DNA from: Microlunatus speluncae
GTDB taxonomy: Bacteria; Actinomycetota; Actinomycetes; Propionibacteriales; Propionibacteriaceae
Length of the DNA: 64,000 bases
Assembly (NCBI RefSeq): GCF_009299835.1
Contig: NZ_VKCZ01000014.1
Coordinates: 744,001-808,000 of the forward strand
Direction: 5' to 3'
Shown: one piece after another, positions 15,588-61,951 of the stretch
Layout of the letters: the number at the start of each line of letters is the position of its first letter
Position numbering within the stretch: position 1 is the stretch's first letter
Position numbers and translations under genes: made by a program
The notes under the pieces: model-generated
Database searches by the model: none
Seen by the model: only the letters and a program-made list of their open reading frames with translations
What the model was told of the DNA's origin: nothing

Positions 15588-15591
15588 CGAA

Positions 15592-21223: not shown

Positions 21224-21319
21224 CCGTAACGGACTATTCATGACCAATTGGGGCCTTCCGTGTCCCATTAATGCCCTTCGCGGCACTCCGACCCCGACGA
21301 CAACAGTAAGGTGAGAGTG

Positions 21320-41761: not shown

Positions 41762-41915
41762 TTCTGCAACCTTCCCCTGCCGCAGCTGACAAGGACCGGC
41801 GCACCCGGGACCCGCGCCGGTTCCAAGAAGCACATCGGCGACCGACCTGACGGGTCACCTCACCTCGGGCCGAATGAACACCAAGCCAACACAGCAGGCC
41901 CGAAAGTTGGTCAAC

Positions 41916-42785: not shown

Positions 42786-45700
42786 TAATGTCCGAAGAAC
42801 TGAATGCCGTGGCCCTGGAGGGGTGATCCGACGAGCACGTTCGCACCGTAGCTCTGCACGGAACTCTGAATGGCGCCGACATAGAGCGCCTGGGTGCCGT
42901 GGTTGCCGAAGCTCGCCAGGTTGGAGAAGCGGGGGCCGTAGTGGGACACCTGCTGCAGCGTGCTCGAGGTCCCGCTGGGCGCGTTGTAGATCTTCGGAAT
43001 CTGCGAGGTGCCCGCACCGAGGCCGCCGGAGACCAACGCCCCCGTCAGATTGATCGGGTTGCCCGAGACCACGTTGTTCGTCACCGAGCCCGAGAACCCG
43101 CCCACGAAGCCGAGCCCGGCGGTGAATCCCCGGGCCGCGAGCCCCTTGGCGTTCTGGCCGACCGCGGTCGCCAGGCTGCCGCCACCCGGACCGCGCCCGC
43201 CGGAGAAGGCGCCGGCCACGAAGCCACCCGCACCGGCACCCAGCGCGCCCCGCCAACTGAGGTTGTTCCAGTTCTGCGTGACATAGGTCGCCTCGCTGCT
43301 CACGGCACCGATCGTGCCATAGACGCCGACCCGGGCCCGCAAGGCGGCAAGTCCGCCCTTGCTGGCCTTCGCGGCCAGGCCCGCCAGGCCGCCGCCCACC
43401 CCACCGACGACGCCGGAGATCGCGACCTGGCCCCAGTTGACCGTGCCGGTGGTGGCCTTCTGGATGATCGTGTCCGCGCCGGCGCTGAGCAGCGCCATGC
43501 CGGCCGGGCCGCCGACCCCGGTGGCCATCAGCACGCCGCCGGCCAGCACCATCGCCCCGCCGGCCAGATACTCCCAGTTGTCTCCGACCCATTCGGTGGC
43601 GGCGTTCCAGGCCCCGTCGTTGCTGGCCGCGTAGGCCTTGAGCTCCTCGTCGGTGACCGGGCTCAGCCCGGCCGGATCGAGCGCGTGCAGCGGATCGTTC
43701 CCGGCGAAGGCGTACGGATTGCCGGACCAGCCCGCACCGGTCACCGGCTCGAGCTGGTCGACCGACAGGAACGCCCGGGTCGCCGGATCGTAGGCGCGGG
43801 CGCCCATCCACTCCAACCCGCCGACCAGCAACTCCCCCGCGGCGCCGACCCGCATCCCGGCGGTCAGGTCGGCGACCGGAGCGACGGCCCAGGGATCGGG
43901 GGAGGCCGCCCGCGCGGTCCGCCAGCCGGCCGCGTGCCAGGCACCGCCGACGCCGGTCAGCCCGCCGGCGGTGGGCACCACCGGCGAGTCGCCGGCCTGG
44001 ATCAGTCCCGGCGCGTACGACTCCGCGGAGTCCCACCAGGTCTCGGCCCCGTCGACCCGGCCGAGCTCGCCGACGACATCCACCCACAACCGGGTGGTCC
44101 GGGTGGCGCCGGTGGCGTCGCGGTCGGTGATCGCGGACAGCCCGCCGACCTCCGACCAGGCGAACTCCCGGACCCGGCCGTCGGACGCCTCGGCCCGGAC
44201 CCGCCGGCCCGCCTGGTCGTAGTGATAGCTCACCCGCGCCTCGCCGGTGCTGGTCGAGACCAGCTGTCCCGCGGCGTCGTGGCAGTGGTCGCGGCGGGTG
44301 CCGTCGATCGCCTCGGCCGTCAGCCGGCCGGCCCGGTCGAACACCCAGCTCGACCCGGTGCCGTCCTCGGCCCGCTCCTCGACCAGCTGCCCGGCCTCGT
44401 CGTAGCCGAACGTGCGCCGGCCAGAGTCGGCGGTGAGCGAGCAGATCCGGCCCGACTCGTCGCGCTCCAGCCGGGTCCGGGTCGAGCCGACCAGCCCGGT
44501 CAGGGTGTGCTCGACGACGAAGCCGGCCGCGTGACCCCAGGTCTGGATCAGGTCACCGGCGGCCGCCCGGACCAGCCGGCCCGAGGCGTCGTAGCCGAAG
44601 GTGGCCCGGCCGAGCAGCGGATGGTCGACGGCGGTCAGTCGGCCGGTCTCGTCGCGTTCGTAGCGGGTCCGGTGGCCGTCCGGCGTGGTCATCGTGGCCC
44701 GCCGGCCGTCGCTGTCGTAGGTCCACTCGACCCGGCCCTCGCCACGGCGCCGGGTGATCAACTGCCGGCGCCCGTTCCAGCTCAGCTCGTGCTCGGTCGA
44801 CCGTTCGGGGTCGGAGTGATCGGCGATGATCACGCGCCGGTCGCGGAGGTCGCGGCTGATCTCGGCGATCAGCCGGCCGTCGATCCGCAGCGTCGCTTCC
44901 TGGCCCGCCCGGAACGTCCGTTCGGTCCGGCGGCCGCAGGGATCGGTCCGGGTGAGTTGCCGGCCGGCGGCGTCGTACTCGGCGGTGGTGGTGCGGCCGA
45001 GCGGGTCGGTCTCGGCGATCAGCCGCCCCATCGGGTCGTAGCTGCGCCGGGTCACCCCGCCGAGCGGGTCGGTGATCATGATCACCCGGCCGAGGGCGTC
45101 GTAGTCGTAGCGGGTGATGCCACCGTTGCCGCCTGTCGCCTCGACCAGTTGCCCGGCGGCGTCGTAGCGGAACCGGCGCGGCCCGTGCCACGGGTCGGTC
45201 TGCCGGATCAGCCGGCCCATCAGGTCGTACCCGTAGCGGGTCAGCCCCTCGCCGGGCTGGAACCGGGCCACGACCCAGCCCATCGCGTCGTAGTCGGACC
45301 AGGCGACCTCCCCGGTCGACGACACCTCCCGCACCACACGGCCGTCGGCGTCGTACTGCCGCTCGATCCGGCCGCCGGTCGGATCGGTCACCGCGGCCGG
45401 CCGGCCGCACGCGTCGTATTCGTAGCGGGTGATGGCGCCGGACGGCGCGACCAGCTCCACCAGGCGGCCGGCGGGATCCCGCCGCAACAGCGTCAGTTGG
45501 CCTTCGCCGTCGACCAGTTCCACCGCACGGCCGCAGCGGTCGTAGCTGATCAACCGGGTCGACCCGTCCGGCTCCTCCGCCGCGACCGGGCGGCCCAGCT
45601 GGTCGAACTTGAGCGCCGACGTCGCCTCGGCCTCGACCAGCGCGGCACTGCGGCCGGCCGGATCCGCGGCCAGCGTGCGGTGCAGCCCGGTCGGGTCGGT

Positions 45701-48190
45701 GAACGAGGTCACCTCGCCGTTCGCGTCGTACTCGCGCCGCCAACTGCCGCCGGAGGGATCGATGGTCTGCCGCAGCCGGGACAGCGCGTCGTGCACGAAC
45801 CGCCAGCTGCTGCCGTCCGGCAGCTCGACCGCGGCCAGGTTGCCGAGATCGTCGTAGCTGCTGGTCGTCGCCCGGCCGAGCGGGTCGATCGTCTTGATCA
45901 CCTCGCCGTGCGGGCCGTACTCGAGCTCGGTCCGGCCGCCGTACGGGTCGATCGTGGCCGTCGGCCGGCCGCCGGCCGAATGCTCGAACCGGTGGATGGC
46001 GCCGTTCGGGTCGCGGCGGGAGGCGAGCAGGCCGGCCGCGTCGTAGTGGAAGGTGGTCCGCGCTCCGGACGGCGTGATCGCGGCGATCACCCGACCGGCC
46101 GCGTCCCGGTCGAGCCGGGCGCGGTGGTCGGCGGCGTCGATCACCGCGACCAGGTCGCCGTGCTGGTCGTAGTCGAACCGGAGTCGGACCCCGACCGGGT
46201 CGACCACCTGGCGCAGCAGCGCCCCGTCCCAGGTCAGCTCGGTCCGGCCGCCCTCGGGATCGGTGATCACCGACGGATTGCGGTCCGCGCCGGCATAGCT
46301 GTATTCGGTGACCGCGCCGGACTCGGTGACCACGGTGGTCACCCGGTCGGCGTCGTCGTAGCCGAAGGTCAGGTCGGCGCCGGCCGGGGTCCGGGTCCGC
46401 AGCCGCCGGCCCCGTTCGTCGTAGCCGTGGGTGGTGACGGCGCCGTTGCGTTCGGTCGCCGAGACCACGTTGCCGAAGCCGTCGTAGTTCATCGCCTGCC
46501 GGTGGCCGTCGGCGTCGACGACCCGGACCAGCCGGCCGCGCTGGTCGGCGACCCAGGTGTTCGACCGGTCGCCGTCGCGATCGGACACGACCGTGATCCG
46601 GCCGGGTAGATAGGTGTAGCGGGTCTCCCGGCCGAAGGGCGAGCGCTGGCCGGCGACCCGGCGCTGCTCGTCATAGCTGTTCTCGACCTCGACCGTGCCG
46701 TCGGCCGCGATCACGGCCTCGATCAGGCCGGCGTCGTTCCACCGGTACGTGCGGGTGCCCAGCGGCCCGGTGGCCGAGGCGAGCCGGCCGGCGTCGTCGT
46801 AGCCGAAGGAGGCCCGGCGGCCGTCCGAGGCTCGCACCTCGGTGACCCGGTGCGCGGTCCAGCCGATCTCGATCCACCGGCCGCGCTCGTGGGCCAGCCG
46901 AATCAGCCGACCCTCGTCATCGCGCTCCGCGGTGATCTTGGTCCCGGGACCGCGGCTGACCGAGGTCCAGAGCCCGCCGGCCGTGAAGGTCCGCCGCAGG
47001 CCGTCGTTGTCCGACACCACCAGGCCGCCGGAGCCGACCCGGTGCAACCACAGCTTCTCCCCCGGTGCCCGGTCCCAGCCGTCGCCGAGCCGCGGGATCA
47101 GCACCCGGCGCCCGTCGGCCAGCACCATCGTCGCGCCGTCGTCGGCCAACTCCAGCCGTACGTCGAGCACCGACGACCAGCCCGGCCCGAACGCGCCGCC
47201 TTCGCCGTCCACGGCGTTGTAGGTGCGGGAGAACTCGAGCTCGGCCGCGGCGCCGGCGAAGCCGAGATCCAGTTCGGTCTCGACGAAGTTGCCGGTGGCG
47301 GTGTTCACCGGGTCGTCGGCGTAGCCGGTGGTCGGCGGATGACCGTAGGCCTGCGCGGCGACGATGGTCAGATCCTGCCGGGTCTCGGCGATCCCGGCGG
47401 CGCTCAGCACCTCCGACAGGGTGCTGTTCAACAGCCAGGTGATGTTGCCCTCGCCGCCGGCCGTGGCGAACGCGTTCGCGACCGTCGTCGCCCAGGTCAC
47501 GTCCTGGACGTTGGCGGCCAGCCACTGGTCGAAGCCGGTCACCACGCCGTCGGCGGACAGCGAGCCCCACTGGCAGGCCGAGGCGAAGCTCGTCAGGTGG
47601 CCGCGCAGCGCGCCCGGCTTGTCCTTCAGCGCCTCGTTCAGCGGGGCGGAACCGGTCACGAACTGGCGCAGGTTGGAGGGTCGGGCCGAGGTGGTGGTCG
47701 AGCTGCCGCCGCTGGCGCCGGTGCCCGGTGGCGGGGTCTGCCGGGTCCCGTTCTGCGATGCCGAGGCAGTGATCGACACCGGGTCGGCCGGCGGCCCGAC
47801 CGGCGGATCCTCACCACCGCCGATCCAATCGCCGAACTCCTCGAAGACGTTGCGGTCGTCCTGCTCCTGCTTCCAGGTGCGCGCCTTGTCGCGACGCTGC
47901 TGTTCCTTGGTCGCCTCGGTCTTGAGGGTGCGCGCACCGGTCGCGACCTCCCGCAGCCGGGAGATCAGCTCGGTGGCGTCTGCGGCGGCCACCGAGGCGT
48001 TGCCGGAGAAGAGTTCGGAGAAATGTCCCTTGAAGTCCACCGTGCCGGTGCTCACGGACGTCGCGCGAACAGCCGTCTGCCCGTCGATGTCCGTCGCCGC
48101 CGCGTCGAAGGCCGCGATCAGTGCGTCGGCGACGTCGTGGTCGAACGGCACCTTCTCGTCGATGGCCCCGAGGTCGGAGATGTCTACCAC
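42785..48190 (-). CDS. Giant RHS/YD-repeat protein, hydrophobic-tailed, no recognisable toxin tip
   Basis: This 1801-residue protein starts at GTG 48190 (VDISDLGAIDEKVPF), with GGGAAGG about eight bases upstream. The N-terminal 110 residues are helical and include KEQQRRDKARTWKQEQDDRN. RHS repeats begin with DDPVNTATGNFVETELDLGF near 290, and the core ends near 1483 (RAFLSVDQLEPVTGAGWSGN). The 290-residue tail has hydrophobic glycine-rich segments (GGAMVLAGGVLMATGVGGPA) and ends SPLQGHGIQFFGH. It is very similar throughout to 36368-41761. WXG100 copy a lies 139 bases upstream, and a coupled membrane protein follows. Secretion through the type VII-like system is inferred. Confidence 0.88.
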   Translation of the reverse strand: MVDISDLGAIDEKVPFDHDVADALIAAFDAAATDIDGQTAVRATSVSTGTVDFKGHFSELFSGNASVAAADATELISRLREVATGARTLKTEATKEQQRRDKARTWKQEQDDRNVFEEFGDWIGGGEDPPVGPPADPVSITASASQNGTRQTPPPGTGASGGSSTTTSARPSNLRQFVTGSAPLNEALKDKPGALRGHLTSFASACQWGSLSADGVVTGFDQWLAANVQDVTWATTVANAFATAGGEGNITWLLNSTLSEVLSAAGIAETRQDLTIVAAQAYGHPPTTGYADDPVNTATGNFVETELDLGFAGAAAELEFSRTYNAVDGEGGAFGPGWSSVLDVRLELADDGATMVLADGRRVLIPRLGDGWDRAPGEKLWLHRVGSGGLVVSDNDGLRRTFTAGGLWTSVSRGPGTKITAERDDEGRLIRLAHERGRWIEIGWTAHRVTEVRASDGRRASFGYDDAGRLASATGPLGTRTYRWNDAGLIEAVIAADGTVEVENSYDEQRRVAGQRSPFGRETRYTYLPGRITVVSDRDGDRSNTWVADQRGRLVRVVDADGHRQAMNYDGFGNVVSATERNGAVTTHGYDERGRRLRTRTPAGADLTFGYDDADRVTTVVTESGAVTEYSYAGADRNPSVITDPEGGRTELTWDGALLRQVVDPVGVRLRFDYDQHGDLVAVIDAADHRARLDRDAAGRVIAAITPSGARTTFHYDAAGLLASRRDPNGAIHRFEHSAGGRPTATIDPYGGRTELEYGPHGEVIKTIDPLGRATTSSYDDLGNLAAVELPDGSSWRFVHDALSRLRQTIDPSGGSWRREYDANGEVTSFTDPTGLHRTLAADPAGRSAALVEAEATSALKFDQLGRPVAAEEPDGSTRLISYDRCGRAVELVDGEGQLTLLRRDPAGRLVELVAPSGAITRYEYDACGRPAAVTDPTGGRIERQYDADGRVVREVSSTGEVAWSDYDAMGWVVARFQPGEGLTRYGYDLMGRLIRQTDPWHGPRRFRYDAAGQLVEATGGNGGITRYDYDALGRVIMITDPLGGVTRRSYDPMGRLIAETDPLGRTTTAEYDAAGRQLTRTDPCGRRTERTFRAGQEATLRIDGRLIAEISRDLRDRRVIIADHSDPERSTEHELSWNGRRQLITRRRGEGRVEWTYDSDGRRATMTTPDGHRTRYERDETGRLTAVDHPLLGRATFGYDASGRLVRAAAGDLIQTWGHAAGFVVEHTLTGLVGSTRTRLERDESGRICSLTADSGRRTFGYDEAGQLVEERAEDGTGSSWVFDRAGRLTAEAIDGTRRDHCHDAAGQLVSTSTGEARVSYHYDQAGRRVRAEASDGRVREFAWSEVGGLSAITDRDATGATRTTRLWVDVVGELGRVDGAETWWDSAESYAPGLIQAGDSPVVPTAGGLTGVGGAWHAAGWRTARAASPDPWAVAPVADLTAGMRVGAAGELLVGGLEWMGARAYDPATRAFLSVDQLEPVTGAGWSGNPYAFAGNDPLHALDPAGLSPVTDEELKAYAASNDGAWNAATEWVGDNWEYLAGGAMVLAGGVLMATGVGGPAGMALLSAGADTIIQKATTGTVNWGQVAISGVVGGVGGGLAGLAAKASKGGLAALRARVGVYGTIGAVSSEATYVTQNWNNLSWRGALGAGAGGFVAGAFSGGRGPGGGSLATAVGQNAKGLAARGFTAGLGFVGGFSGSVTNNVVSGNPINLTGALVSGGLGAGTSQIPKIYNAPSGTSSTLQQVSHYGPRFSNLASFGNHGTQALYVGAIQSSVQSYGANVLVGSPLQGHGIQFFGH

Positions 48191-48329: not shown

Positions 48330-48611
48330 TCAGCCGTTGCCGCCGGCGGTCATGATGTTCTGCGAGATCTTCTGCAACTGGTCCCGCAGTTCTTCCAGCT
48401 CCTGCTTCGCCTTGTCCAACGCCGCCTTCGTCTCCGGCCAAGTCGAACTCCGGAACTGAGCCGCCAACGCGCCGTCCCAGACATTCGGCTGCGACAGCGT
48501 GGTCCCCTGGGTGTTCAACTGCGTGATGTCATCCGTCAAACCCCCGCTGATGATCCTCTGAATCTCCCCGATCGCGATCTTCGCTTCCTCAGTCGACAAA
48601 ACCCGCGTCAT
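48330..48611 (-). CDS. WXG100 family protein (copy a)
   Basis: The 93-residue sequence and DNA are identical to the copy at 35898-36179, including W45-D46-G47. The ribosome site differs by one base (GGAGGTGTACGG). It precedes the RHS gene at 42785-48190 by 139 bases and is divergent from the lipoprotein gene at 48952, so one intergenic region may control both the substrates and the secretion components. Confidence 0.88.
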   Translation of the reverse strand: MTRVLSTEEAKIAIGEIQRIISGGLTDDITQLNTQGTTLSQPNVWDGALAAQFRSSTWPETKAALDKAKQELEELRDQLQKISQNIMTAGGNG

Positions 48612-48951
48612 CCGTACACCTCCATCCACACCGGCCCCGGGCCGGTCAACGTGTGTGAGTTGGCTCATTCATCGTCTGGGCGAACACGCGGAGCAGACCC
48701 GCCCGCTCGTACGGCCCGACTCGAACCAAGATCAACTTAACAGCGGCGGGAGCACCAAGATCATTTGGAAATCCACTGTTCTTCCGGCGTTAACCAAGGC
48801 CCGCACCGGGCCCGGAGGAAGATCACGGCTCGGCGCGGCGTGGACGGCACCGTGACGCGCCTCTGCGATACGATCCCGCAGCATGGCGACGCCCGGAGCG
48901 TCGGAAGATCGCACCACCCAGCCGACTGACCAGCCATTCACAAGGGAGCTG
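48612..48951. promoter_or_regulatory. 340-bp divergent control region between the WXG100/RHS and secretion genes
   Basis: No convincing gene lies here. ACCAAGATCA occurs twice in direct orientation (48725-48734 and 48754-48763), 29 bases apart, as expected for a regulator site. On the minus strand CTGTTAAGTT near 48734 resembles the element found upstream of the other copies. On the plus strand TACGAT lies eight bases before ATG 48883, which starts a short in-frame extension of the lipoprotein gene and may mark the transcription start. Confidence 0.4.
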
Positions 48952-51906
48952 ATGACGATCACCAGGCCCGAACGGACCTGTCCCAGCGGGTCCTTCGCCC
49001 GTCAACCGTCCATCCGTGTCCGACCCCTCGCGCTGCTGCTCGCGGCCGTGTTGGTGGTCGCCGGCTGTACGACGCAGGACCAGGGACCGGACCTGCCGCC
49101 GCAGCGCATCCTGCAGTCGGTGGACGTCCAGATGGCCCCGGACGGCGCGATGACCGCGATCAAGTCGACCGCACTGTCGGTCCGCGAGAACGCGTCCGAC
49201 GCCACCACCGACACCCGGAACTACTCCCCGCGCGAGGTCGCCGACGACCTGCCGGTGCGGGTGAGCACGGCGTACCGTACGGCCGACAGGACCGGCACCA
49301 ATCTCGACGAGCTGGCCGGGCACACCGGCCGGATCGAGATCGACATCACGGTGCAGAACCTGACCCTGCGGCCGGAGAACCTCACCTACGACGTCGCCGG
49401 CAGCTCGCGGACCCAGCCGGCGCTGGTCGGCGCCCCGCTCACCGTGGTCGCCTCGACCGCGCTGTCCGGGGTCGAACCGACCGAGGTGATCACCGCCACC
49501 GCGTCCGGCACCGGGGCCGCCACCAACGGCGTGCTCAGCCGGTCCGACAACGGCGAGGCCGTGATCCAGTGGGCCGCCCTGCTCGCGTCGCCGCAGATGG
49601 GCTCGAACGCGACCCTGCGACTGGTCGCGGACGCCAAGGACTTCAAGGTGCCGACCTTCGACCTGTCGGTGCAGCCCGGGCTGGTCACCGATCCGTCGGT
49701 GAGCCGGGTGCTGGAGTCGGCGTTCAACACCAGCCCGACCTCCCAGCTCGCGCTGGAGCAGCGGACGATCCGGGTGATCACCGACGTCAACCAGGTGCTC
49801 ACCCGCGCCAGCGGGGACATCTCCAAGGTGCGGAAGAACCTGGAGTCCACCTCCAAGACGCTCGGCACCCGGACAGTCAAGGAACTGGAGGAGAGCACCA
49901 AGGGTCTGTCCTCCTCGGTCAAGACCCTCGACGGCCAGCTCACCGATCTGAACCGCGACATCGAAGGCACCGTCGAGGGCGCCCAGTCCGCGGTGCTGCA
50001 GGAACTGAGCCAGACCGTCGGCGCGCTGGACAAGCTGCTCGGCGACACCTCGGGTGATCCGCCCGCACCGCGGGTCAGCGGCAACGGCTGCGCGACGGTC
50101 GTCGGCTCGCCGCAGGCCGTCGGCAGCGTGTACGGCAACCTGCTCCAGGTCTCCGGCCAGCTCCAGGGTTACGCCACCGCCAGCAAGAACTGCAAGGCCG
50201 AAGCCCAGGCCGTGCTGCTGCGTTCGGTCGGCCCGGCCGAGCCGAGTGCCGAACTGTGCAAGGAGGACAAGTCGACCACCTGCTCACTGTGGGCGGCCGA
50301 GCAGACCTTCGCCGCGATCATGCAGCGGCTGGTCGATGACGGCGAGAAGTTGATCAGCAAGCTGCAGCCCGAGATCGTTGCGACGGCGCGGGACGAATAC
50401 GCCGGTCTCGAAGACGAAGTTGTAGCCGTCGGCGACAACGCCAACCTGGTCAAGAAGTCGGCCGAGATCTTGGAGGCGGCCGCCAAGCAGCGACTGGATG
50501 ATGTCGAGAAGAATCTGGAAGCCGAGCTGGCTGGAACGAAAGCCCAGCTGGAGGCGATGGACCAGCAATTGGAAGACCTATCGGCGGTTCTGACCCAGAC
50601 TGACGAAGGGTTGGACCTGTTCGGCGACGGTCTGGAGACGATCCACGTCGACGCCGGCAACGCGATCGAAGAGTTGCGGAGCGAGGACGAGGACAATCCC
50701 GATCGGGGCGACTCGGTGGAGGCCCAGATCCTGGCGGCTGCCGAACTCGCCTGCGAGATGGGCGAGGATGGTGCGTTCGACGAAGGTGCCGACGAGCGCG
50801 ACGTCGAGAAGATGCGGGCCTACCTCGTCGGCACGGGCTGCGAGCTCATCGACGACGACAACAATCCCCAGACACCGCCGGTGCCGGAAATCCTGGACGC
50901 TCCGTCGCCGTTCCGGCAGAAGGGTTCACTGCTGCAGCGGATCAAGGACCAGTCGGCCGCCTGGCAGAAGGTCGTGGATGCCACCGATGAGGAGAGCGAC
51001 GAAAGCCTCTACGGTCCGCTGCGCGCCACTAAGCAGAAGCTGGCCGATTCCCAGGAACGGATCACGGCGATCCGTGCCGCGATCCAGAAGCTCCTCGCTC
51101 AGACGCCGGAGGACGTGGACATCGATAAGGAACTGCCCGAGCTGGATGACTTGACCGAGCAGGTCGAGGAGCTGACCGGATCGATCGAGGAGTTCCAGGG
51201 CTCGTACCAGGACATGGGCCCGGCGATGGAGGCCCTGATCAAGTACGAAGCCGAGCTGCCGGGCCTGATCCGGGCCGGGTTCAAGAACGCCTCCCAGGAC
51301 GCCACTAAGCGACTGGCCGAGGCGATCGAGCCCGCGATTCGCAAGATCAGCAAGCAGGCCGAGATCGACAGCGAGGCCGTGGGCAAGATGTTCGAGCAGT
51401 CGGCCGTGGGGTTGTCCAACGGGGCGGCGGCGATCAACAAGAACGGCGCCCGGATCATCGACAGCCAGCGCCGGGCGCTGCGCGAGTCGGAGAAGCGGAC
51501 CGCGGCGGCCGCGGCCAAGCAGGTCGACGAATCACTCGGCGACCTGGCCCGCGGAGTGTCGGACTCGACCCGGGACGTCAACGCCTCGTTCGCCCTGCTC
51601 GAGACCAGCCTGAAGAAGGTGCTGCTCGACCTCGGTGACCGCAAGGTCAACGGTTCCGGCCTGCTCGGCTCGATGGCCACCAGCGCGGCCCAGGTCGGCA
51701 CCGCCGACTTCCAGCTGGCGCTGGCGTCGGGCCAGACCGAGGCGTACGCCAACGTCCGCGGTGAGGACATCAACGGCATCCTGCTGAAGCAGGCCCAGTT
51801 GCAGGCGGCCCTGCAGGTCGGCGCCACGCTGCCCGCGTTCCAGCTCGAGGTGCCGCCCGGCGCCGAGAGCCAGACCGTCTACACCTTCCGAATCGGGGCG
51901 CAGTGA
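48952..51906 (+). CDS. Large coiled-coil lipoprotein next to the secretion ATPase
   Basis: The protein has 984 residues. A signal peptide with lipobox LVVAGC places the acylated cysteine at residue 39. The mature protein is beta-like to about 250, then mostly long heptad-rich helices (KVRKNLESTSKTLGTRTVKE, KQRLDDVEKNLEAELAGTKA, LDDLTEQVEELTGSIEEFQG), ending in a small beta region. ATG 48952 follows GGGAG; ATG 48883 in frame would place a 23-residue extension before the signal. An extracellular coiled-coil rod recalls the outer segment of EsaA/YueB in Firmicutes type VII systems, but no homology is claimed. Its stop overlaps the next start by four bases. Confidence 0.75.
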   Translation: MTITRPERTCPSGSFARQPSIRVRPLALLLAAVLVVAGCTTQDQGPDLPPQRILQSVDVQMAPDGAMTAIKSTALSVRENASDATTDTRNYSPREVADDLPVRVSTAYRTADRTGTNLDELAGHTGRIEIDITVQNLTLRPENLTYDVAGSSRTQPALVGAPLTVVASTALSGVEPTEVITATASGTGAATNGVLSRSDNGEAVIQWAALLASPQMGSNATLRLVADAKDFKVPTFDLSVQPGLVTDPSVSRVLESAFNTSPTSQLALEQRTIRVITDVNQVLTRASGDISKVRKNLESTSKTLGTRTVKELEESTKGLSSSVKTLDGQLTDLNRDIEGTVEGAQSAVLQELSQTVGALDKLLGDTSGDPPAPRVSGNGCATVVGSPQAVGSVYGNLLQVSGQLQGYATASKNCKAEAQAVLLRSVGPAEPSAELCKEDKSTTCSLWAAEQTFAAIMQRLVDDGEKLISKLQPEIVATARDEYAGLEDEVVAVGDNANLVKKSAEILEAAAKQRLDDVEKNLEAELAGTKAQLEAMDQQLEDLSAVLTQTDEGLDLFGDGLETIHVDAGNAIEELRSEDEDNPDRGDSVEAQILAAAELACEMGEDGAFDEGADERDVEKMRAYLVGTGCELIDDDNNPQTPPVPEILDAPSPFRQKGSLLQRIKDQSAAWQKVVDATDEESDESLYGPLRATKQKLADSQERITAIRAAIQKLLAQTPEDVDIDKELPELDDLTEQVEELTGSIEEFQGSYQDMGPAMEALIKYEAELPGLIRAGFKNASQDATKRLAEAIEPAIRKISKQAEIDSEAVGKMFEQSAVGLSNGAAAINKNGARIIDSQRRALRESEKRTAAAAAKQVDESLGDLARGVSDSTRDVNASFALLETSLKKVLLDLGDRKVNGSGLLGSMATSAAQVGTADFQLALASGQTEAYANVRGEDINGILLKQAQLQAALQVGATLPAFQLEVPPGAESQTVYTFRIGAQ

Positions 51907-53195
51907 GCAAGCGTCATTGGATCGTGATCGCCGTCGCGGTCGTCGTGCTGCTGGCCGGCGGCGGCGGGTTCCTGGTGTGGCGGAACGCCTCCGCCACCCC
52001 GAAGACGGACCCGGCTCCGGCCCAGCCGGTCGCCGTCGCGGTGCCCGGGGCGCCGGCCGAGCTGAAGATCGGCGTCCTGGTGACGCTGGCTTCGCGGCCG
52101 GGCCAGGGCTCGGAGTGGAAGTTCGCCGCCGAGGGCGCCCAGGTGGCCGCGGAACGGCTGACCATGGGCGGCGTCAAGGTCACGCTGGTGACCGTCGACG
52201 ACAAGGGCAGCGAGGCCGGCGCCCAGCGCGCGGTGGAGCAACTCGCCGACCAGAGCGTGGTCGGGATCATCGCTGCCAGCCAGGGCTCGCACCTGAGCGG
52301 CGCGGTGAAGGCCGCCAAGAAGGCCAAGGTGCCGCTGCTGCTGCCGTACGAGCCGGATCCGAAGCTGCTCGGCGATCTGGCCTGGGCCACCGGCCCGCAG
52401 GATTCGGCCATCGGCGCCGCCCTGCAGCAGTCGCTGACCGCGGCGAACCTGAAGCGGACCCTGCTGATCGACGTCGGCGGCGGCACCCCGGACGGGGTGG
52501 ACCCGGACGGCAAGATCACCTTCGAGCCGGACGACGATCCGAAGAACCTGGTCAAGGTCGTCACCGACCGGACCAAGGAGAAGAAGCCCATCGACTCCGT
52601 CCTGATCTCCGGGCCGGCGGTGCAGCAGGCGGCCGTGGTCCAGGCGCTGCAGGGCGCGGACCTCACGCTGCCGCTCTATCTCACCCCGGACGCGACCAGC
52701 CCGGCCTTCACCGCCGCGCTGGTCGAGGCCGGCGGCAGCCTGTCGACCAGCCTGGCCAGTGTCGGGCCCGACGCCGACGACGCGGCGGCGCTGGGCGCGG
52801 ACGAGACCGGCAAGGCGGTGTCGGCCTTCCTGGCCGCCACCCGGATGCTGGCCGGTGATCCGGAGCGGACGACGTTGTTGGGCGACCAGCCGTTCGCCGA
52901 GGTGGCCGACCACGCCGACACCCGCAGCCACGACGCGGTGATCGCGATGGCGTACGCCATCACCGCCGTGACCACCCGGCAGAGCCAGGACGGCAGCGTC
53001 GATCCGGAGACCGCGATCGCCGGGTTGAAGCTCGACCACGCCAGCGGACTGGCCGGGCCCGCGCTCGACTTCTCCGGCAGCGGCGCCCTGGCGCCCGACG
53101 GCGTGATCGGGTTGCGATCGTCGGATCAGGATCTCGGGCTCCGGCCCGGCGCGTCCGACCCGGCCCCGCGGCTGATCTGGTTCGCGGCCCCCTGA
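51903..53195 (+). CDS. Membrane-anchored periplasmic-binding-protein-like protein
   Basis: This 430-residue protein has one N-terminal membrane helix (WIVIAVAVVVLLAGGGGFLV) followed by a type I periplasmic-binding fold: LKIGVLVTLASRPGQGSEWK, AEGAQVAAERLTMGGVKVTL, VVGIIAASQGSHLSGAV and SVLISGPAVQQAAVVQALQG. This is the Leu/Ile/Val-binding (Peripla_BP_6) pattern, yet no ABC permease is nearby. GTG 51903 overlaps the lipoprotein stop (GTGA), so the two are coupled. A fixed external sensor or scaffold for the secretion module is inferred from context. Confidence 0.75.
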   Translation: MSKRHWIVIAVAVVVLLAGGGGFLVWRNASATPKTDPAPAQPVAVAVPGAPAELKIGVLVTLASRPGQGSEWKFAAEGAQVAAERLTMGGVKVTLVTVDDKGSEAGAQRAVEQLADQSVVGIIAASQGSHLSGAVKAAKKAKVPLLLPYEPDPKLLGDLAWATGPQDSAIGAALQQSLTAANLKRTLLIDVGGGTPDGVDPDGKITFEPDDDPKNLVKVVTDRTKEKKPIDSVLISGPAVQQAAVVQALQGADLTLPLYLTPDATSPAFTAALVEAGGSLSTSLASVGPDADDAAALGADETGKAVSAFLAATRMLAGDPERTTLLGDQPFAEVADHADTRSHDAVIAMAYAITAVTTRQSQDGSVDPETAIAGLKLDHASGLAGPALDFSGSGALAPDGVIGLRSSDQDLGLRPGASDPAPRLIWFAAP

Positions 53196-53255
53196 CTCGA
53201 CGCCCCATGACTCGAGGCCCCGGCGACCTGGGACGCCGATAGCCCCGGGACTCCG

Positions 53256-53309
53256 TAGATTGGACTGGTGACCACCGACGTCGGAAAGGCATTTCGTTGC
53301 GTCTGTTGA
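53256..53309 (+). promoter_or_regulatory. Promoter and 13-codon leader frame overlapping the ATPase start
   Basis: TAGATT (53256-53261) is followed by six bases and GTG 53268, the same spacing as other leaderless starts here. From GTG 53268 a 13-codon frame (VTTDVGKAFRCVC) ends at TGA 53307-53309, crossing the ATPase TTG start at 53297 in another frame. Ribosomes finishing this leader could restart on the ATPase gene, or the short peptide could damp its expression. Confidence 0.4.
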
Positions 53310-56300
53310 TCGACATCGACGGTTCGCCGCGCGAAATCGAGGTGAGCCGCAGCACTCCGTCGGCCACCCTGGCCGATCTGGTCGCCGAGACCTGCGGGCA
53401 GCGGCTCGATGATCAGACGACCCTTTTCGTCGATGAGAACGCCGCCGCCGCCGACACGCTGCTGTCCGAGCTGCTGCTGCTCGAGGGCAGCACCGTGTCC
53501 CGGGCGCCACTGGAACGACCGACGCCGACGACCGGTTGGACCGCGACCCTGGCCGGTGGGCTGGACGCCGGCCTCGTGATCGCCGTTCCGGCGAACCGGG
53601 CGATGATCATCGGCCGCTCACCGCAGGCCGACATCTCGGTGGACTCCGCCAGCACCTCGTGGGAACACGCGACGGTGACCATCGAGGGCGACGGCGTCCG
53701 GGTCAAGGACGCCGGCTCGACCAACGGCACCCTGGTCGACGGCCGGCGCCTCGGCGGCCCCGAGGAAGAACCCGACGGCGACGGCGACGAGGCCGAGGAT
53801 GCCGACGACCAGGACGAGACGGCGACGAAGGACCGGCCCGGCCCACGGCAGCGCGCGGCCGACCTGATCCGACGCAAGGGTCGCAAGGAGGTGCCCGCCG
53901 AGCCGCGGCCCGAGGGGATCCTGGTCACCGAACAGGCCGTGGTCACCGCCGGCGGGGTGACCGTCCTGTTGCGCCCGCGGATCGTGGAGACTCCGGCGCC
54001 CAAGCCGGGATCCCTGCACAACCTCACCCCGGCCGGTACGGCGCCGTACAACCGGCCGCCCCGACCCGGCCGACCGGAGGACCCGGACCCGGTGCAGCCC
54101 CCGGCCCGCAAGGACGTGCCGGACTCCAGCCGGTTCAGCATCGCGATGATCATCGCGCCGCTGGTGCTGGCCGGGGCCATGGTGATGGTGATGGGCAACC
54201 CGATGTTCGCCATGATGGCCGCGCTCAGCCCGATCCTCGGCGTCGGCACCTGGATCGAAGGCAAGCACCGGCGCACCAAGAACCTGAAGGCCGAGGAGAC
54301 CCGGTTCGACGAGGCGATCGTGACGCTGCGGACCGAGCTTCGGGAGGCCGGGGTCGAGGCGAGCCGGCGCAGCTACGGCGACGCGCCCGACCCGGCGACG
54401 GCGATCCGCCGCGCCGCCATCCCCACCATGACGCTGTGGGAGCGCCGATCCCAAGCGCAGGACTTTCTGCACCTGCACGCCGGCGTGGGCGACACCCCGT
54501 GGTCGCCGCCGGTGGAGAACCGGGCCGGCGGCCGGCTCGACGACAAGATCCGGGCGGCGATGCGGGACAGCCGGATGCCCGCGTCCGCCGTCGAGGTCGA
54601 CCTCTCCGGAGCCGGCGTGGTCGGCATCGTCGGCGACCGGGCCGGCGCCCTGGCCGTCGCCCGGAGCCTGCTGACCCAGGCGGCCACGCAGAGCGGGCCG
54701 GCGGATCTCACGGTCGGGGTGTTCTGCGACCAGGGCCGGGACGAGGACTGGGCCTGGACGTCCTGGCTGCCGCACCTGCGCCGGCACGGCGGCGGCGCCG
54801 GCGAACGGTGGCTGTCCGACCAGCGATCCCGCAGCGACGAACTGCTGCGTACGCTGCGCGACGGGATCCATGATCATCCGACCCCGGCCGTGCTGATGAT
54901 GCTCGACTCCGACGTGCTGACCGAAGGCCGCAACGCCCCGGCCCGGACCCTGCTCGGCCACGGCCGGCCGCACGGCACCAGCAACCCGCAGAAGCCCGAG
55001 ACCCAGGTCTCCGGCATCGTCGTCGCCTCCTCCGAAGATCAACTTCCGGCCGCCTGCACGGTGGTGATCACGGTCGGCGCCGACGCCGCCGGCACGGTCA
55101 CCCGGCCGGGTGACCTGAAGCAGGTCGACGACGTCGTGCTGGCCGGGATCAGCCTGACCACCGCCCTCCGGGCGGCGATGGACCTGGCCCGGTTCGACGA
55201 CCCGGACCTGGTCGTGCCGGGCGCCGCCCTCCCCTCGCTGGTCCGGCTGCCGCCGCTGCTCGACTTCGAGGAGATCTCCGCCGAGGTGATCCGGCAGGCC
55301 TGGTCGGCGCCGACCGGGGTGTCGACGCCGGTCGGCATCGGTGAGGGCGGAGCGTTCAGCCTCGACCTGGTCCGCGACGGCCCGCACGGCCTGGTCGGCG
55401 GCACCACCGGCTCGGGCAAGAGCGAGTTCCTGCGCTCGCTGGTGGCCGGGCTCGCGGCCCGCAACGATCCGACCAAGCTGACCTTCATCCTGATCGACTT
55501 CAAGGGTGGTGCGGCATTCAAGACCTGTGAGCGGCTGCCGCACACGATCGGCACGATCAGCAACCTGGACGAGCAGCTGGCCAACCGGGCGCTGCGCGCG
55601 CTGGAGGCCGAGATGCAGTACCGGCAGCGTAAGTTCGCCGCGGCCGGCGAGGGCGTGGACAACCTGGACACCTATCTGGCGACCAACCCGAGCGAGCCGA
55701 TGCCGCGGTTGCTGCTGGTGGTGGACGAGTTCGCGATGCTGGCCAAGGAGTTCCCGGACGTGCTGTCGTCGCTGGTCAGCGTCGGCGCCGTCGGCCGTAC
55801 CCTCGGCGTGCACATGATCCTGGCCACCCAGCGGCCGGCCGGCGTGGTCAACGACGACATCCTGGCCAACACCAACCTCCGGGTGGCCCTGCGGGTGCAG
55901 AGCCGGGAGGACTCGAGCAATGTGATCGGGGTGCCCGATGCCGCCGCGATCAGCCGCCGGCAGCAGGGCCGCGCCTACGTCAAGCTCGGCCAGGACGACA
56001 TCACGCCGGTGCAGACCGCCCTGGTCACCGGACAGTCGGAGCAGGAGTCGGTGTCCAAGATCGACGCCCATCCGGTGGTGTTCGGTCAGGTACGCCAGGA
56101 GGCCCGGCCGCGGCCCGCGGAGGATGCGCCGGCCGACCTTGATCTGATGATCGACGCGATCGTCGCCGCGGCCGGCGATGCCGGCATCGCCGCGCCCCGG
56201 CCGGTCTGGCCCGAGCCGCTGGGCGAACGGGTCGAGCTCGCCGGTTTCGTACCGGAGCAGCCGGCCGGCCTCGAACCGCAGCCCGAGGACGAGGACGGTC

Positions 56301-57754
56301 CGCCGCTGCCGGTGGTGGGCGGTCTGGTCGACGGCGGCCGGATCGAGTTCGCGATCTCCGACGACCCGGACCGGCAGCGGCAGATCCCGGCCGGCTGGGA
56401 CATCGAACGCGGCAACCTGCTGCTGATGGGGATCCCCGGCAGCGGCACCAGCACCTCCCTGTCCACCCTCGCGCTGACCCTGGCCGACGCCGTCGCCCCG
56501 GACGAGCTCGACCTGGTCGTGCTCGACATGGGATCCGGCGACCTGCGGCCGTTGGCCGAGCTGCCGCACACCACCGGCTACGTCGGGTCGGGCAGCGGCG
56601 CCCGGGAACAGCAGGTGCGGTTCATGCGCTACCTGCGGGCCGAGCTGGACCGGCGCAAGGCCGACAGCTCCGGCCAGCATCGCCGGACCGTGGTGCTGAT
56701 CGACGGGCTGGCCGCGCTGCGCGAGGAGTTCCAGGACTTCGAGGGCATCGCGCTGATGGACAGCCTCTACCGCGCGTACGCCGACGGCCCCGACCTCGGG
56801 CTCTACTTCGCGGCGGCGACCACCCGGGCGAAGTCGGTGCCGCCGGCGATCGATGAGGTGACCACCCAGAAGTGGCTGTTCCGGCTGGCCGACCAGTACG
56901 ACTACTCGGCCGCCGGGGTGAAGCCGGCCGAGGCGCCGGCCGCGGTGCCCGGCCGGTGTGTGCTCAGCGAGACCAAGCTGCAGACCCACGTGGCGACGCC
57001 GAACTGCGGGCTGCGCGAAGCCGTGGCCCGGCTGACCGCCAAGTGGGGCGAGTCGGGCAAGTCCGACGTCGTCGGCCGGCTGCCGGAGCACGTGTCGGTC
57101 ACTGAGCTCGGGGTCCGGTCCGTGATCGGCGTCGAGCCGTGGCAGGTCCCGGTCGGGATCCGCGAGGTCGACCTGGAGCCGCAACTGCTGGAGCTCTACG
57201 AGGGCGAGCACATGATGATCGCCGGGCCGGCCCGGTCCGGCAAGTCGACCCTGCTGTTGTCGATCGCCGAGTCGCTGCGGGCCGGTGAACACCAGGGCGA
57301 CCCGGCCCAGGTCTGGGGGGTCGGCGATCGCCGCTCTCCCCTGCTCAGCTCCCCGCTCTTCGACCGGACGGCGTCCGCCGCCGACGGCCTGGCCCCGTTG
57401 CTGGCCGAGGCCCGGATGCACGACGGCCCGCTGGTCCTGATGATCGACGACGCAGAACGCTTCGACGACGCCGATCAGGCGATCAGCGGCCTGCTCGACG
57501 CCGGCCTGACCGATCTCCGGATCATCGCCGGCGGCCGCTCCGACGACCTGCGCAGCCTTTACAGCCACTGGACCAAGACCGTCCGCAAGTCCCGCTGCGG
57601 CGTGCTGCTGCAACCCAACGTCGACTACGACGGTGACCTGCTGGGCGTCACCCTCCCGCGCCGAGCCCCGGTCGCCCTCACTCCTGGCCGCGGCTACGCC
57701 TGCGTCGCCGGCGGCCTGGCCCTGGTCCAGACCGCCAGCCCCTCGACGACCTGA
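53297..57754 (+). CDS. FHA-FtsK/SpoIIIE type VII secretion ATPase (EssC/EccC-like)
   Basis: The protein has 1485 residues. A ubiquitin-like N-terminal strand region (1-70) is followed by an FHA domain (IIGRSPQAD near 105, STNG near 141), an acidic linker, and two membrane helices near 278-318. Three FtsK/SpoIIIE ATPase domains come next. D1 has GGTTGSGKSEF near 701 and LLLVVDEFAML near 806. D2 near 1041 has GIPGSGTSTS, with the P-loop lysine replaced. D3 near 1307 has GPARSGKST. FHA plus three ATPase domains is the EssC plan; the ATPase drives WXG100 and linked effectors across the membrane. TTG 53297 is chosen because GGAAAGG lies eight bases upstream. Confidence 0.9.
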   Translation: MRLLIDIDGSPREIEVSRSTPSATLADLVAETCGQRLDDQTTLFVDENAAAADTLLSELLLLEGSTVSRAPLERPTPTTGWTATLAGGLDAGLVIAVPANRAMIIGRSPQADISVDSASTSWEHATVTIEGDGVRVKDAGSTNGTLVDGRRLGGPEEEPDGDGDEAEDADDQDETATKDRPGPRQRAADLIRRKGRKEVPAEPRPEGILVTEQAVVTAGGVTVLLRPRIVETPAPKPGSLHNLTPAGTAPYNRPPRPGRPEDPDPVQPPARKDVPDSSRFSIAMIIAPLVLAGAMVMVMGNPMFAMMAALSPILGVGTWIEGKHRRTKNLKAEETRFDEAIVTLRTELREAGVEASRRSYGDAPDPATAIRRAAIPTMTLWERRSQAQDFLHLHAGVGDTPWSPPVENRAGGRLDDKIRAAMRDSRMPASAVEVDLSGAGVVGIVGDRAGALAVARSLLTQAATQSGPADLTVGVFCDQGRDEDWAWTSWLPHLRRHGGGAGERWLSDQRSRSDELLRTLRDGIHDHPTPAVLMMLDSDVLTEGRNAPARTLLGHGRPHGTSNPQKPETQVSGIVVASSEDQLPAACTVVITVGADAAGTVTRPGDLKQVDDVVLAGISLTTALRAAMDLARFDDPDLVVPGAALPSLVRLPPLLDFEEISAEVIRQAWSAPTGVSTPVGIGEGGAFSLDLVRDGPHGLVGGTTGSGKSEFLRSLVAGLAARNDPTKLTFILIDFKGGAAFKTCERLPHTIGTISNLDEQLANRALRALEAEMQYRQRKFAAAGEGVDNLDTYLATNPSEPMPRLLLVVDEFAMLAKEFPDVLSSLVSVGAVGRTLGVHMILATQRPAGVVNDDILANTNLRVALRVQSREDSSNVIGVPDAAAISRRQQGRAYVKLGQDDITPVQTALVTGQSEQESVSKIDAHPVVFGQVRQEARPRPAEDAPADLDLMIDAIVAAAGDAGIAAPRPVWPEPLGERVELAGFVPEQPAGLEPQPEDEDGPPLPVVGGLVDGGRIEFAISDDPDRQRQIPAGWDIERGNLLLMGIPGSGTSTSLSTLALTLADAVAPDELDLVVLDMGSGDLRPLAELPHTTGYVGSGSGAREQQVRFMRYLRAELDRRKADSSGQHRRTVVLIDGLAALREEFQDFEGIALMDSLYRAYADGPDLGLYFAAATTRAKSVPPAIDEVTTQKWLFRLADQYDYSAAGVKPAEAPAAVPGRCVLSETKLQTHVATPNCGLREAVARLTAKWGESGKSDVVGRLPEHVSVTELGVRSVIGVEPWQVPVGIREVDLEPQLLELYEGEHMMIAGPARSGKSTLLLSIAESLRAGEHQGDPAQVWGVGDRRSPLLSSPLFDRTASAADGLAPLLAEARMHDGPLVLMIDDAERFDDADQAISGLLDAGLTDLRIIAGGRSDDLRSLYSHWTKTVRKSRCGVLLQPNVDYDGDLLGVTLPRRAPVALTPGRGYACVAGGLALVQTASPSTT

Positions 57755-57786
57755 CCGATCAGGATTCCGCGCCGGGCCCGTCTGTA

Positions 57787-57807
57787 CCTGTGAGACCGAT
57801 TCACAGG
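57787..57807. promoter_or_regulatory. Inverted repeat overlapping the ribosome site of the reductase gene
   Basis: CCTGTGA (57787-57793) and TCACAGG (57801-57807) are perfect inverted arms with a seven-base spacer. The right arm runs into the ACAGGAGG ribosome site, twelve bases before ATG 57819. It could be a repressor operator or an RNA hairpin masking the ribosome site. Confidence 0.5.
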
Positions 57808-57818
57808 AGGCTGGCACG

Positions 57819-59941: not shown

Positions 59942-61951
59942 TCAGCCGCCGCGGGTGACGATCTCGAAGGGGGCGCTCTGCAGGTCGGCGAAGTTGCCGA
60001 CCTTCGCGTTGATCGAGCATTCCGGGGTCTGGGCCAGGGCGGTCACGGTGAGGCCGTTGGAGGAGACGGAAACCGCGCCGGAGCAGCCGTCGCTGAACCG
60101 TACGCCCTTCTCACCTCCGGCAATGGCAACCAGCATCTTGGACGCGGCGCCGACGGACGGGCTCTTGTAGAGGGGATTGACCGAGTCGGAGCCGCTGGGC
60201 CAGACCGGGACCAGGGTGACCGGCAGGGTCTGCTGGCTCACGGTGCGTGAGGGGGTGCTGACCTGGATGTTCTGCAACCGCTGCACCGGGTAGGCGGTGC
60301 CGGTCACCTCGGCGTCCGTGACCGCGGTGCGGGTCGTCTCCGCGGCCGCCGCCAGCCAGTTCTGCAGCTCCTCGGAACTCTTGATCGGCTGTCGCACCGA
60401 GACCCGGACCTGCTTGCTGCTCTGCGCCGGTACGGCGACGCCGTCCACGCTCCAGCCGCAGCGCTGGCTGATCCCGGTGACGCTCGGCAGGTTCTGCTGC
60501 TGCTTGGATCCGTTCCAGCTCACGGTCGGGCAGGCCGCCTTCGGATCCAGCCCGGGCAGCACCTCCAGGAACGGGCCGCGCAGCGGCGCGTTCTGCGCGC
60601 TGTAGGTGATCGTCAGGTCGATCGACGCCGTCTGCGAGTCGTACTCGGCGCGCCGGGAGACGCCGAGCCCGGTCGGGGTCGGCTGATCGGTCTGGCTGGT
60701 CTGATACTCGGCGACCACGGGCGGCGGGGTCGGTGGCGGGGTCGCCGCCGGCCGCGGGATGAGGATGACCGCCGCGATCACCGCACCGATCAGAACCACC
60801 AGGGCGGCGGAGGACAGGATGAGCACCTTCGGCGTCCGCCACCAGGGTCGATCCGGCTCCTCCGACTGAGGTTCCGGCTCGATCGGCGTGGCCGGACGCG
60901 TCGGCAGCGGCCGGTGCAGGGTCGCCTGGCCGGGCGTGCCCAGATCCGGCACCGGGCCGGGGTTGCGGCGGGTCTCGGTGTCCGCCGGCCGCTCGACCGG
61001 CTCCTCGACGACGCCGCGAACGGCGGTGGCCGGCCGGTCGACCCGGGTGTAGTTGTCCGGTAGCGGGACCAGAGCCAGCGGCGGCACCACGTACACCGAT
61101 CCACTCAGCCGGCGCAGGGCAGCGGCGGCCTCGGCGGCCGTCGGCCGGGACCGCGGGTCCTTGTCCAGCAGGCTCTGCACCAGCCGCCACAGCTCCGACG
61201 GCAGCTTCAGCACCGGCACCTGGGCCGAGACGTGCCGCTGGGCGATGCTGAAGTCGGTGCCCGGCCCGGCGAACGGGGTCCGTCCAGCGAGCAACTCGTA
61301 GAAGAGGATGCCGGCGCCGTAGACGTCGGCCGGCGGTCCCGCCTCGCCGGTGCTGATCAACTCCGGCGACATGTATTCCGGGGTGCCCAGCGCCCCCGAC
61401 CCGAGGGCGCCCGTGCCCGATGCGGTGGTCGGCGTGTGCGGGGTGTCGGAGATCATTTCGGCGATGCCGAAGTCGGTGACCTTGACCCCGTCCGTCCGGC
61501 TGGTCCGCCAGTCGGCGAGCAGCAGCACGTTGTCGGGCTTCACGTCGCGATGCAGGATCCGACGCTGGTGCGCGGCGGCGAGCCCGTCCAGGACGGCTGC
61601 GGCGAAGTGGACGGCGACCGTGGGCGGCAGTGTCCGCTCGCGCCGCAGCAACTCGCGCAGGGCGCCACCGTCGAGGTGGTCCATCACGATGGCGAATCGG
61701 TCGCCCTCGATCACCAGGTCGCGGACGGCGACGATGTTGGGATGACGCAGGCCGGTGAGCAGGGACCGCTCGCGGACGAACCGCTCCACCAAACCGGGGT
61801 CGGCGACGTGCTCCGGGCGGAGCAGCTTGGCGGCGATCGTGTCGCCGTTCCGCGTGTCGACTCCGCGCCACACCTCGCCGGTGGCTCCGCTGCCGATCCG
61901 TTCTTCGAGGCGGTAGGAAGCGCCTAGCGCTAGGGCCTCGCTGAACTGCAT
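59942..61951 (-). CDS. Transmembrane Ser/Thr protein kinase
   Basis: This 669-residue PknB-like kinase has the glycine loop IGSGATGEVW (19-28), the catalytic lysine in AAKLLRPE near 41, HRDVKPDN near 136, DFGIAE near 158 and GTPEYMSPEL. A Pro-rich linker leads to one membrane helix near 378-398 (VLILSSAALVVLIGAVIAAV). A 270-residue external domain follows with paired cysteines and a Thr/Pro-rich neck; it is not a PASTA repeat. ATG 61951 is used because the kinase begins at once; an in-frame ATG pair near 62020 is possible. The FHA domain of the secretion ATPase could be a phospho-partner, which is inference. Confidence 0.9.
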   Translation of the reverse strand: MQFSEALALGASYRLEERIGSGATGEVWRGVDTRNGDTIAAKLLRPEHVADPGLVERFVRERSLLTGLRHPNIVAVRDLVIEGDRFAIVMDHLDGGALRELLRRERTLPPTVAVHFAAAVLDGLAAAHQRRILHRDVKPDNVLLLADWRTSRTDGVKVTDFGIAEMISDTPHTPTTASGTGALGSGALGTPEYMSPELISTGEAGPPADVYGAGILFYELLAGRTPFAGPGTDFSIAQRHVSAQVPVLKLPSELWRLVQSLLDKDPRSRPTAAEAAAALRRLSGSVYVVPPLALVPLPDNYTRVDRPATAVRGVVEEPVERPADTETRRNPGPVPDLGTPGQATLHRPLPTRPATPIEPEPQSEEPDRPWWRTPKVLILSSAALVVLIGAVIAAVILIPRPAATPPPTPPPVVAEYQTSQTDQPTPTGLGVSRRAEYDSQTASIDLTITYSAQNAPLRGPFLEVLPGLDPKAACPTVSWNGSKQQQNLPSVTGISQRCGWSVDGVAVPAQSSKQVRVSVRQPIKSSEELQNWLAAAAETTRTAVTDAEVTGTAYPVQRLQNIQVSTPSRTVSQQTLPVTLVPVWPSGSDSVNPLYKSPSVGAASKMLVAIAGGEKGVRFSDGCSGAVSVSSNGLTVTALAQTPECSINAKVGNFADLQSAPFEIVTRGG

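Follow-up and report, generated by a model that had tools for sequence, protein, structure and literature searches.

What kind of secretion machinery, if any, is encoded where an EssC-type ATPase stands beside a coiled-coil lipoprotein and a periplasmic-binding-like protein, divergent from genes for WXG100 and RHS proteins? The question is raised by a 64,000-nucleotide stretch of Microlunatus speluncae DNA (assembly GCF_009299835.1, contig NZ_VKCZ01000014.1, positions 744,001 to 808,000; hereafter the window, meaning that whole stretch), drawn from a high-GC genome of 6.8 Mb whose assembly is, by the tool's figure, an estimated 97% complete and 7.8% contaminated. A first-pass annotation of the sequence had proposed a distinct minimal module of the type VII secretion system (T7SS) kind, made up of the lipoprotein (Lipo), the binding-protein-like protein (PBP) and the ATPase. 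We conclude that the locus encodes a real, conserved T7SS variant and, as far as sequence comparison can tell, probably a new subtype. The gene content described in that annotation (coiled-coil lipoprotein, anchored PBP-like protein, EssC-plan FHA ATPase and, divergent from these, genes for WXG100 and RHS proteins) is upheld by open reading frame (ORF) calls, GC-frame pattern and family matches, with typical coding composition, but its three-gene set, real as the genes are, was incomplete, since a Ser/Thr kinase at 59942-61951 had been overlooked as a member. The features concerned are as follows.

48952..51906, plus strand: rod protein Lipo, 984 residues, signal peptide with lipobox VVAGC
51903..53195, plus strand: PBP, Peripla_BP_6 match 6.9e-11, N-terminal transmembrane anchor, overlapping Lipo by 4 nt
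53297..57754, plus strand: EssC-type ATPase, FtsK_SpoIIIE 4.1e-47, FHA 1.1e-12
53297..53506, plus strand: ATPase-fused ubiquitin-like domain, predicted from a structure model (ATPase residues 1-70)
59942..61951, minus strand: Ser/Thr kinase with kinase domain, linker, transmembrane segment and extracytoplasmic domain; the open frame extends to 62410
48330..48668, minus strand: WXG100 protein, conserved part starting at a Met at about 48611
42785..48190, minus strand: RHS protein, likely cargo, with an apparently helical N-terminal domain
36368..41833, minus strand: second RHS protein, sharing its N-terminal domain with that at 42785..48190
30019..35793, minus strand: third RHS protein, same N-terminal domain as the other two, PT-HINT close to the C-terminus

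The ATPase is what a T7SS calls for, a membrane-bound FtsK-type ATPase of the EccC/EssC plan that matches EccC (4nh0), YukB (9qks) and EccC5, and it falls between two family models, under both cut-offs (TIGR03928 EssC, 481 bits against a cut-off of 778; TIGR03924 EccCa, 365 against 509). Its order is a predicted ubiquitin-like domain (1-70), an FHA domain with an insert (about 82-226), a transmembrane segment and FtsK-type domains. A search of the genome with PF01580 gave four matches: two in this ATPase, one in an 891-residue frame that is probably FtsK and one in a 499-residue frame (37 bits, cut-off 24). The WXG100 protein encoded alongside scores under the cut-off of both of its models (TIGR03930 1.4e-4, PF06013 4.7e-4) and is strongly conserved across families, its WDG motif being kept in relatives.

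Chance is excluded as the origin of the gene set because the genes are conserved. A Lipo match was found in 25 of 197 genomes of a family sample, M. speluncae included; that of one genome (G040) was weak and spurious, and its region (L058), like region L059, held no set gene, so both were left out. In the 25 regions tblastn placed Lipo in 23, among which PBP was found in 23, the ATPase in 18 and WXG100 in 13; the closest Lipo (genome G164) is 71% identical, and the kinase belongs to a gene cluster of 16 loci, the window counted in. Among 245 genomes of the order, 51 matched Lipo at E<=0.001, of which 24 did so weakly (best 6.6e-10) and were not taken to carry the rod. That left 27 genomes: in 26 of them Lipo is full-length (E below 1e-140), in G107 it is broken. 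A reciprocal PBP profile search of the same 245 genomes (E<=1e-20) returned exactly these 27, and in all of them PBP adjoins Lipo by coordinates. Further afield, a scan of named genomes with two Lipo peptide patterns yielded 52 loci, including some in Arthrobacter, Paeniglutamicibacter, Microbacterium, Cutibacterium avidum, Nocardioides and Blastococcus; the loci span Propionibacteriaceae, Nocardioidaceae, Micrococcaceae, Microbacteriaceae, Blastococcus, Cellulomonas and Actinomycetaceae. PBP is present at 51 of them (the single miss lies at a contig end), the ATPase at 44, the kinase at 44 and all four genes at 39. Separation of Lipo from PBP in relatives would have told against the proposed module, and the two are linked at 51 of 52 loci and in 27 of 27 order genomes; the expected co-occurrence of Lipo, PBP and ATPase likewise reaches beyond the genus, but RHS is no universal partner.

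Some copies are in decay or disorder. In the same genus, locus L047 (G107:C1:1-3196) is a decayed module with Lipo in pieces interrupted by stop codons, RHS fragments and a shortened kinase frame, the PBP of that genome lying across the contig end at G107:C1:4913000-4913908, and in G088 (L038, 10793-12060) PBP is split into two frames, by assembly error or as a pseudogene.

Sorted by ATPase score, the 52 loci comprise 28 of clade 1, 16 of clade 2 and 8 without ATPase. At the clade-1 loci a WXG100 of the window type is found in 20 and RHS in 18; at the 16 clade-2 loci there was no WXG100 of the window type and no match to the window RHS protein. A different WXG100 cluster (PF06013 1.6e-18 for the one member scanned) occurs at 12 of 63 loci, none of them of clade 1; two organisms enter this count twice. 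T7SS_signal is matched by the one scanned member of a further cluster, which occurs at 8 of 63. The N-terminal domain of the three window RHS proteins is shared with RHS proteins at 10 other loci, across families. Together the conserved WXG100 and the shared RHS domain are signs of T7SS export rather than proof of it: RHS export, as first proposed, is plausible in so far as RHS genes are linked and likely cargo, but the clade-2 loci do not extend it to the whole group.

The kinase and the ATPase show how the parts might be joined. Kinase rows of more than 400 bits and 550 residues numbered 69, of which 57 were left after removal of those with identical last 250 residues; the VAIK Lys, HRD Asp and DFG Asp are present in 57 of 57 and the DFG Gly in 47, and the kinase is apparently catalytically active by these residues. 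On the ATPase, the phosphothreonine pocket of the FHA domain (G106, R107, S121, H124 and N143) is unchanged in all 36 sequences compared; the best PDB matches of this domain, by sequence and by fold, are FHA domains, including those of GarA, FhaA (TB39.8), OdhI and DgcB. Between kinase domain and membrane lies an otherwise variable linker in which the T462 column is Thr in 39 of 55 sequences and the T497 column in 46 of 52 (822-residue numbering), every other Ser/Thr column of the window linker having at most 10 Thr. The window kinase carries the motifs TAVR and TLHR here (Thr codons at about 61027-61025 and 60922-60920), and T-x-[LVIMH]-[RK] occurs 99 times in the 57 linkers, with at least one copy in 55 and two or more in 42, which is about 14 times the expectation from 500 shuffles (mean 7.1, maximum 16); the Ser version was seen 5 times against 6.9 expected. 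Because the motif was defined after the sequences had been viewed, and the rows are related (two of the 57 linkers lack it altogether), this pattern has to be read, to the detriment of our proposal, as conservation and not as independent proof. With an intact FHA domain on the partner and conserved threonines in the linker, autophosphorylation followed by docking is nevertheless the simplest reading, and a role of the motif as FHA docking site is plausible from these alignments.

The first 70 residues of the ATPase are predicted to be a fused ubiquitin-like domain. The structure model (E2-6 E12-15 H25-33 E42-45 E48-51 E66-68, predicted local distance difference test score, pLDDT, 90-95) has the strand and helix order of ubiquitin, and the prediction rests mainly on it, since sequence support is thin: the N-terminus of one homologue (L215) matches PF00240 at 8.2e-4 (19.5 bits, under the cut-off of 25.4), and residues 1-80 of the window protein gave no Pfam match. 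Speaking against it, the genome gave no YukD match and the other three of the four homologues weakly match unrelated families, all below cut-offs (Flagellin_IN at 5.9e-4 ahead of a UBX-like family at 0.015; Flagellin_IN at 0.038; an immunoglobulin (Ig) family at 0.14). Foldseek returned only FHA-dominated rows among the matches listed for this region.

The envelope part would consist of Lipo and PBP. The AlphaFold model of Lipo (mean pLDDT 63, predicted template modelling score 0.36) is usable for domain order and uncertain in overall shape; it has a confident beta-rich base (about residues 52-245), followed by some 700 residues, largely helical, and a final strand, and no C-terminal transmembrane segment, which suggests a modelled hairpin rod with both ends at the beta base near the membrane. 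An EsaA-like rod, as the first-pass annotation had it, is thus plausible on topology, on which alone the comparison stands, but no relationship to EsaA was found: the EsaA model does not match Lipo, EsaA is not among the best 50 of 856 Foldseek matches (SMC-like coiled coils and adaptor mu-homology beta domains appear instead) nor among the best 60 of 296 in a PDB profile search (helical and coiled-coil proteins), and a family scan gave weak coiled-coil-type families, all under cut-off. Nor is lipid anchoring a general feature of the rod, since the lipobox is kept in the window and some kin and several relatives have a hydrophobic N-terminus without the lipobox Cys. PBP, a 430-residue extracytoplasmic Peripla_BP_6-like domain behind an N-terminal membrane anchor, shows the opposite pattern: the window protein is anchored by a transmembrane segment, and many relatives carry a lipobox.

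From the observed gene content, linkage, kinase and FHA residues and linker motifs we infer, with reasonable though by no means full confidence, a T7SS of a subtype outside the published a to j, with a core of ATPase, kinase, Lipo, PBP and WXG100, gated through kinase and FHA domain and exporting WXG100 and RHS proteins. An active kinase would take the place of the pseudokinase EssB/YukC and would phosphorylate its own threonines in the T-x-hydrophobic-R/K linker motifs; the FHA domain of the ATPase would dock on the linker phosphothreonine, and phosphorylation would thereby gate assembly or activity of the motor. Rod and PBP would make up the envelope part, PBP may signal ligand or envelope state to the kinase, and the ATPase would export WXG100 with RHS proteins via the RHS N-terminal domain. 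A fuller version, in which PBP and rod respond to a signal from a neighbour or from the wall, the kinase phosphorylates itself, the FHA domain of the ubiquitin-bearing ATPase docks and WXG100/RHS export fires as a phosphothreonine-switched secretion of a new subtype, is speculative, and we would sooner expect it to fail in some part than to hold entire.

Several points weigh against a single gated machine. Its support comes throughout from sequence and model analysis. The kinase is not in the flank of 8 of the 52 loci and the ATPase not in that of 8, and contig ends (L198, L232, L234) explain three of the eight misses in each case, the rest not being explained in this way; at clade-1 loci the kinase gene frequently lies on the other strand. 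No full-length Lipo was found in any of the 395 other genomes of an even phylum sample, so the distribution is patchy. Of the Lipo-bearing genomes tested, 12 of 32 also have EccB and 5 of 21 an EccD match. The ATPase tree (a quick method on 77 hand-picked rows of 103 collected, with composition warnings) holds clade 1 together (100 by SH-aLRT, the Shimodaira-Hasegawa-like approximate likelihood ratio test) and ten EccC rows as a separate group (100), but sets two clade-2 ATPase groups apart with FHA ATPases of other lineages in between. As the ATPases are not one clade, the notion of one system fits the Lipo-PBP-kinase part better than it fits the ATPase. The PBP and Lipo trees (34 rows each, with long-branch warnings for Lipo) part clade 1 from two clade-2 groups (99/99 and 96/92). 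The histories of trio and ATPase are partly separate, perhaps because ATPases were exchanged, perhaps because the trio was lost in other lineages.

The alternative that survives best takes up this last point. The trio of Lipo, PBP and kinase might be an independent sensor of the envelope: lodged next to T7SS ATPases, it would regulate them or other processes without being part of the secretion machine. It stays together while the ATPases come from separate places in the tree, and there is a precedent in Corynebacterium glutamicum, where GlnH, GlnX, PknG and OdhI form a cascade from a PBP to a kinase to an FHA protein (PMC9769921). There too the signal runs from a periplasmic binding lipoprotein by way of a kinase to an FHA protein, but the cascade serves metabolic control through GlnX and PknG and not secretion. 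A detached sensor is hard to square with an EssC-type ATPase near the trio at 44 of 52 loci, at some of them adjacent on the same strand (L210, L214, L220 and others), and without the trio the locus would hold a motor and WXG100 only; we regard this alternative as rather unlikely, if the most serious of those considered.

Alternatively, the set might be a divergent T7SSd, with Lipo and PBP as far-diverged TsdI and TsdH and nothing new needed. One relevant classification (Garrett, Higginson and Palmer 2024; PMC11217815) distinguishes T7SS subtypes a to j, and T7SSd is the nearest published relative, its Tsd proteins being compared by description only. In that account T7SSd is actinobacterial; its ATPase carries an FHA domain whose phosphothreonine site is conserved, and a kinase, WXG100 and a candidate RHS protein go with it. 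TsdH and TsdI are part of its definition, TsdI being proposed to be EsaA-like. Our set shares with T7SSd, by kind of protein and not by orthology, the Actinomycetota host, the FHA EssC-type ATPase, the transmembrane Ser/Thr kinase, WXG100 and the RHS candidate, as well as a large extracytoplasmic protein, and no separate ubiquitin-like gene is reported in that account of T7SSd. It differs in having Lipo and PBP in place of TsdI and TsdH, and perhaps in the ubiquitin-like fold predicted inside the ATPase. TsdI is given as 1654 residues with signal peptide, Ig-like domains and C-terminal transmembrane segment, whereas Lipo has about 1000 mostly helical residues, an N-terminal anchor and no such segment; TsdH has a single transmembrane segment and a short cytoplasmic part, PBP a 430-residue extracytoplasmic domain. 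Among the gene clusters of the loci there was no conserved TsdI-like family, nor, among the clusters listed (ORFs below 60 residues were not called), a TsdH-like one. Such differences make this alternative unlikely. At locus L053 (6755-10060) a secreted protein of 1101 residues with repeated Ig-like segments and hydrophobic C-terminus lies beside a Lipo-PBP-kinase set and recalls TsdI; it clusters with no other gene.

The claim to novelty is a limited one, as PMC11217815 has already described T7SS variants that combine a kinase with an FHA ATPase. The proposed distinct minimal module stands, linked to WXG100 and RHS and without EccB, EccD or YukC in the M. speluncae genome. A T7SS of the Lipo-PBP type was not found in the open-access papers searched; the main text of PMC11217815 lacks the words "lipoprotein" and "substrate-binding" and has "periplasmic" once, in another context, and the carrier species may stand in its supplementary loci lists under another heading.

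Other subtypes are more distant. With T7SSb (EsaA/YueB, EssB/YukC, EssC/YukB, EsaB/YukD) the set has in common an EssC-plan FHA ATPase, a kinase-fold membrane protein, a rod-like protein and a ubiquitin-like element, but its kinase residues are intact where EssB/YukC is a pseudokinase, and Lipo gave no EsaA match. Its FHA phosphothreonine residues are also intact, in contrast to the T7SSb EssC site, which PMC11217815 reports as lost. The FHA region of YukB and the pseudokinase domain of YukC copurify (PMC9600267), which the proposed kinase-FHA link would parallel, but via phosphate. T7SSa/ESX shares the FtsK-type ATPase and WXG100, and its EccC rows group apart. The M. speluncae genome gave no match to EccB or EccD, both of which match in the same 6 of 6 chosen control genomes (in an earlier EccB search the named controls had given no match), and none to YukC (PF10140) or YukD (PF08817), which match in the Bacillus subtilis control. 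The first-pass observation that EccB, EccD and EssB are absent thus extends from the window to the genome, where none turned up elsewhere (EssA, EccE and mycosin were not searched for). The EsaA N-terminal model gave two sub-threshold matches (73 and 53 bits, cut-off 122), both on other contigs and both in membrane proteins of repetitive sequence, whose neighbour is an ABC-type ATPase in one case and an MmpL-like gene in the other; we take them to be of the YhgE/Pip type. A partnership of the ATPase with classical EccB/EccD or EssB components encoded elsewhere, as the Lipo-bearing genomes with EccB or EccD might suggest, is very improbable in view of these searches and of 19 further Lipo-bearing genomes, among the 32 tested, without EccB.

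Beyond the set, FHA- or EssC-type ATPases of other actinobacterial lineages were encountered (L149-L167, L180, L181), and no Lipo or PBP was found beside those examined in other classes with the set profiles; a Peripla_BP_6 gene near one (L150), a strong match to the general family, was not counted as PBP. Next to the ATPase of L181 lie two small ORFs, a kinase and a 1049-residue protein, and L156 has two kinases with PQQ propellers; more unclassified T7SS variants are therefore likely. The Lipo search of the phylum sample matched 33 of 396 genomes, besides M. speluncae weakly (best E 4.4e-11) and mostly in the N-terminal domain region; these matches were dropped as domain-sharing, 14 of 20 regions holding a Lipo-profile ORF and none matching PBP, ATPase or kinase (E<=0.01). 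Distant actinobacteria thus have frames of 660-1111 residues with the Lipo N-terminal region and no set genes nearby (L091, L093, L096 and others), and Pfam gave no name to the one scanned (L096). In the window itself, a RibD_C gene (57633-58385, plus strand) and an ECF-type (extracytoplasmic function) sigma factor with SnoaL-like C-terminal domain (58414-59409, minus strand, between ATPase and kinase) are neighbours, and 8 kb from the RHS genes the minus strand at 12036-22777 carries large glycosyltransferase and CDP-glycerol glycerophosphotransferase-like genes, perhaps a wall-polymer locus.

The kinase-FHA link is the most testable feature of this variant. What the FHA and kinase-like domains of T7SSs do is an open question, and since kinase, FHA site and repeated candidate phosphosite all look intact here, their role could be addressed directly. 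In Actinomycetota T7SS is usually equated with ESX; if the proposed subtype is real, a range of environmental and host-associated actinobacteria would have a machine other than ESX.

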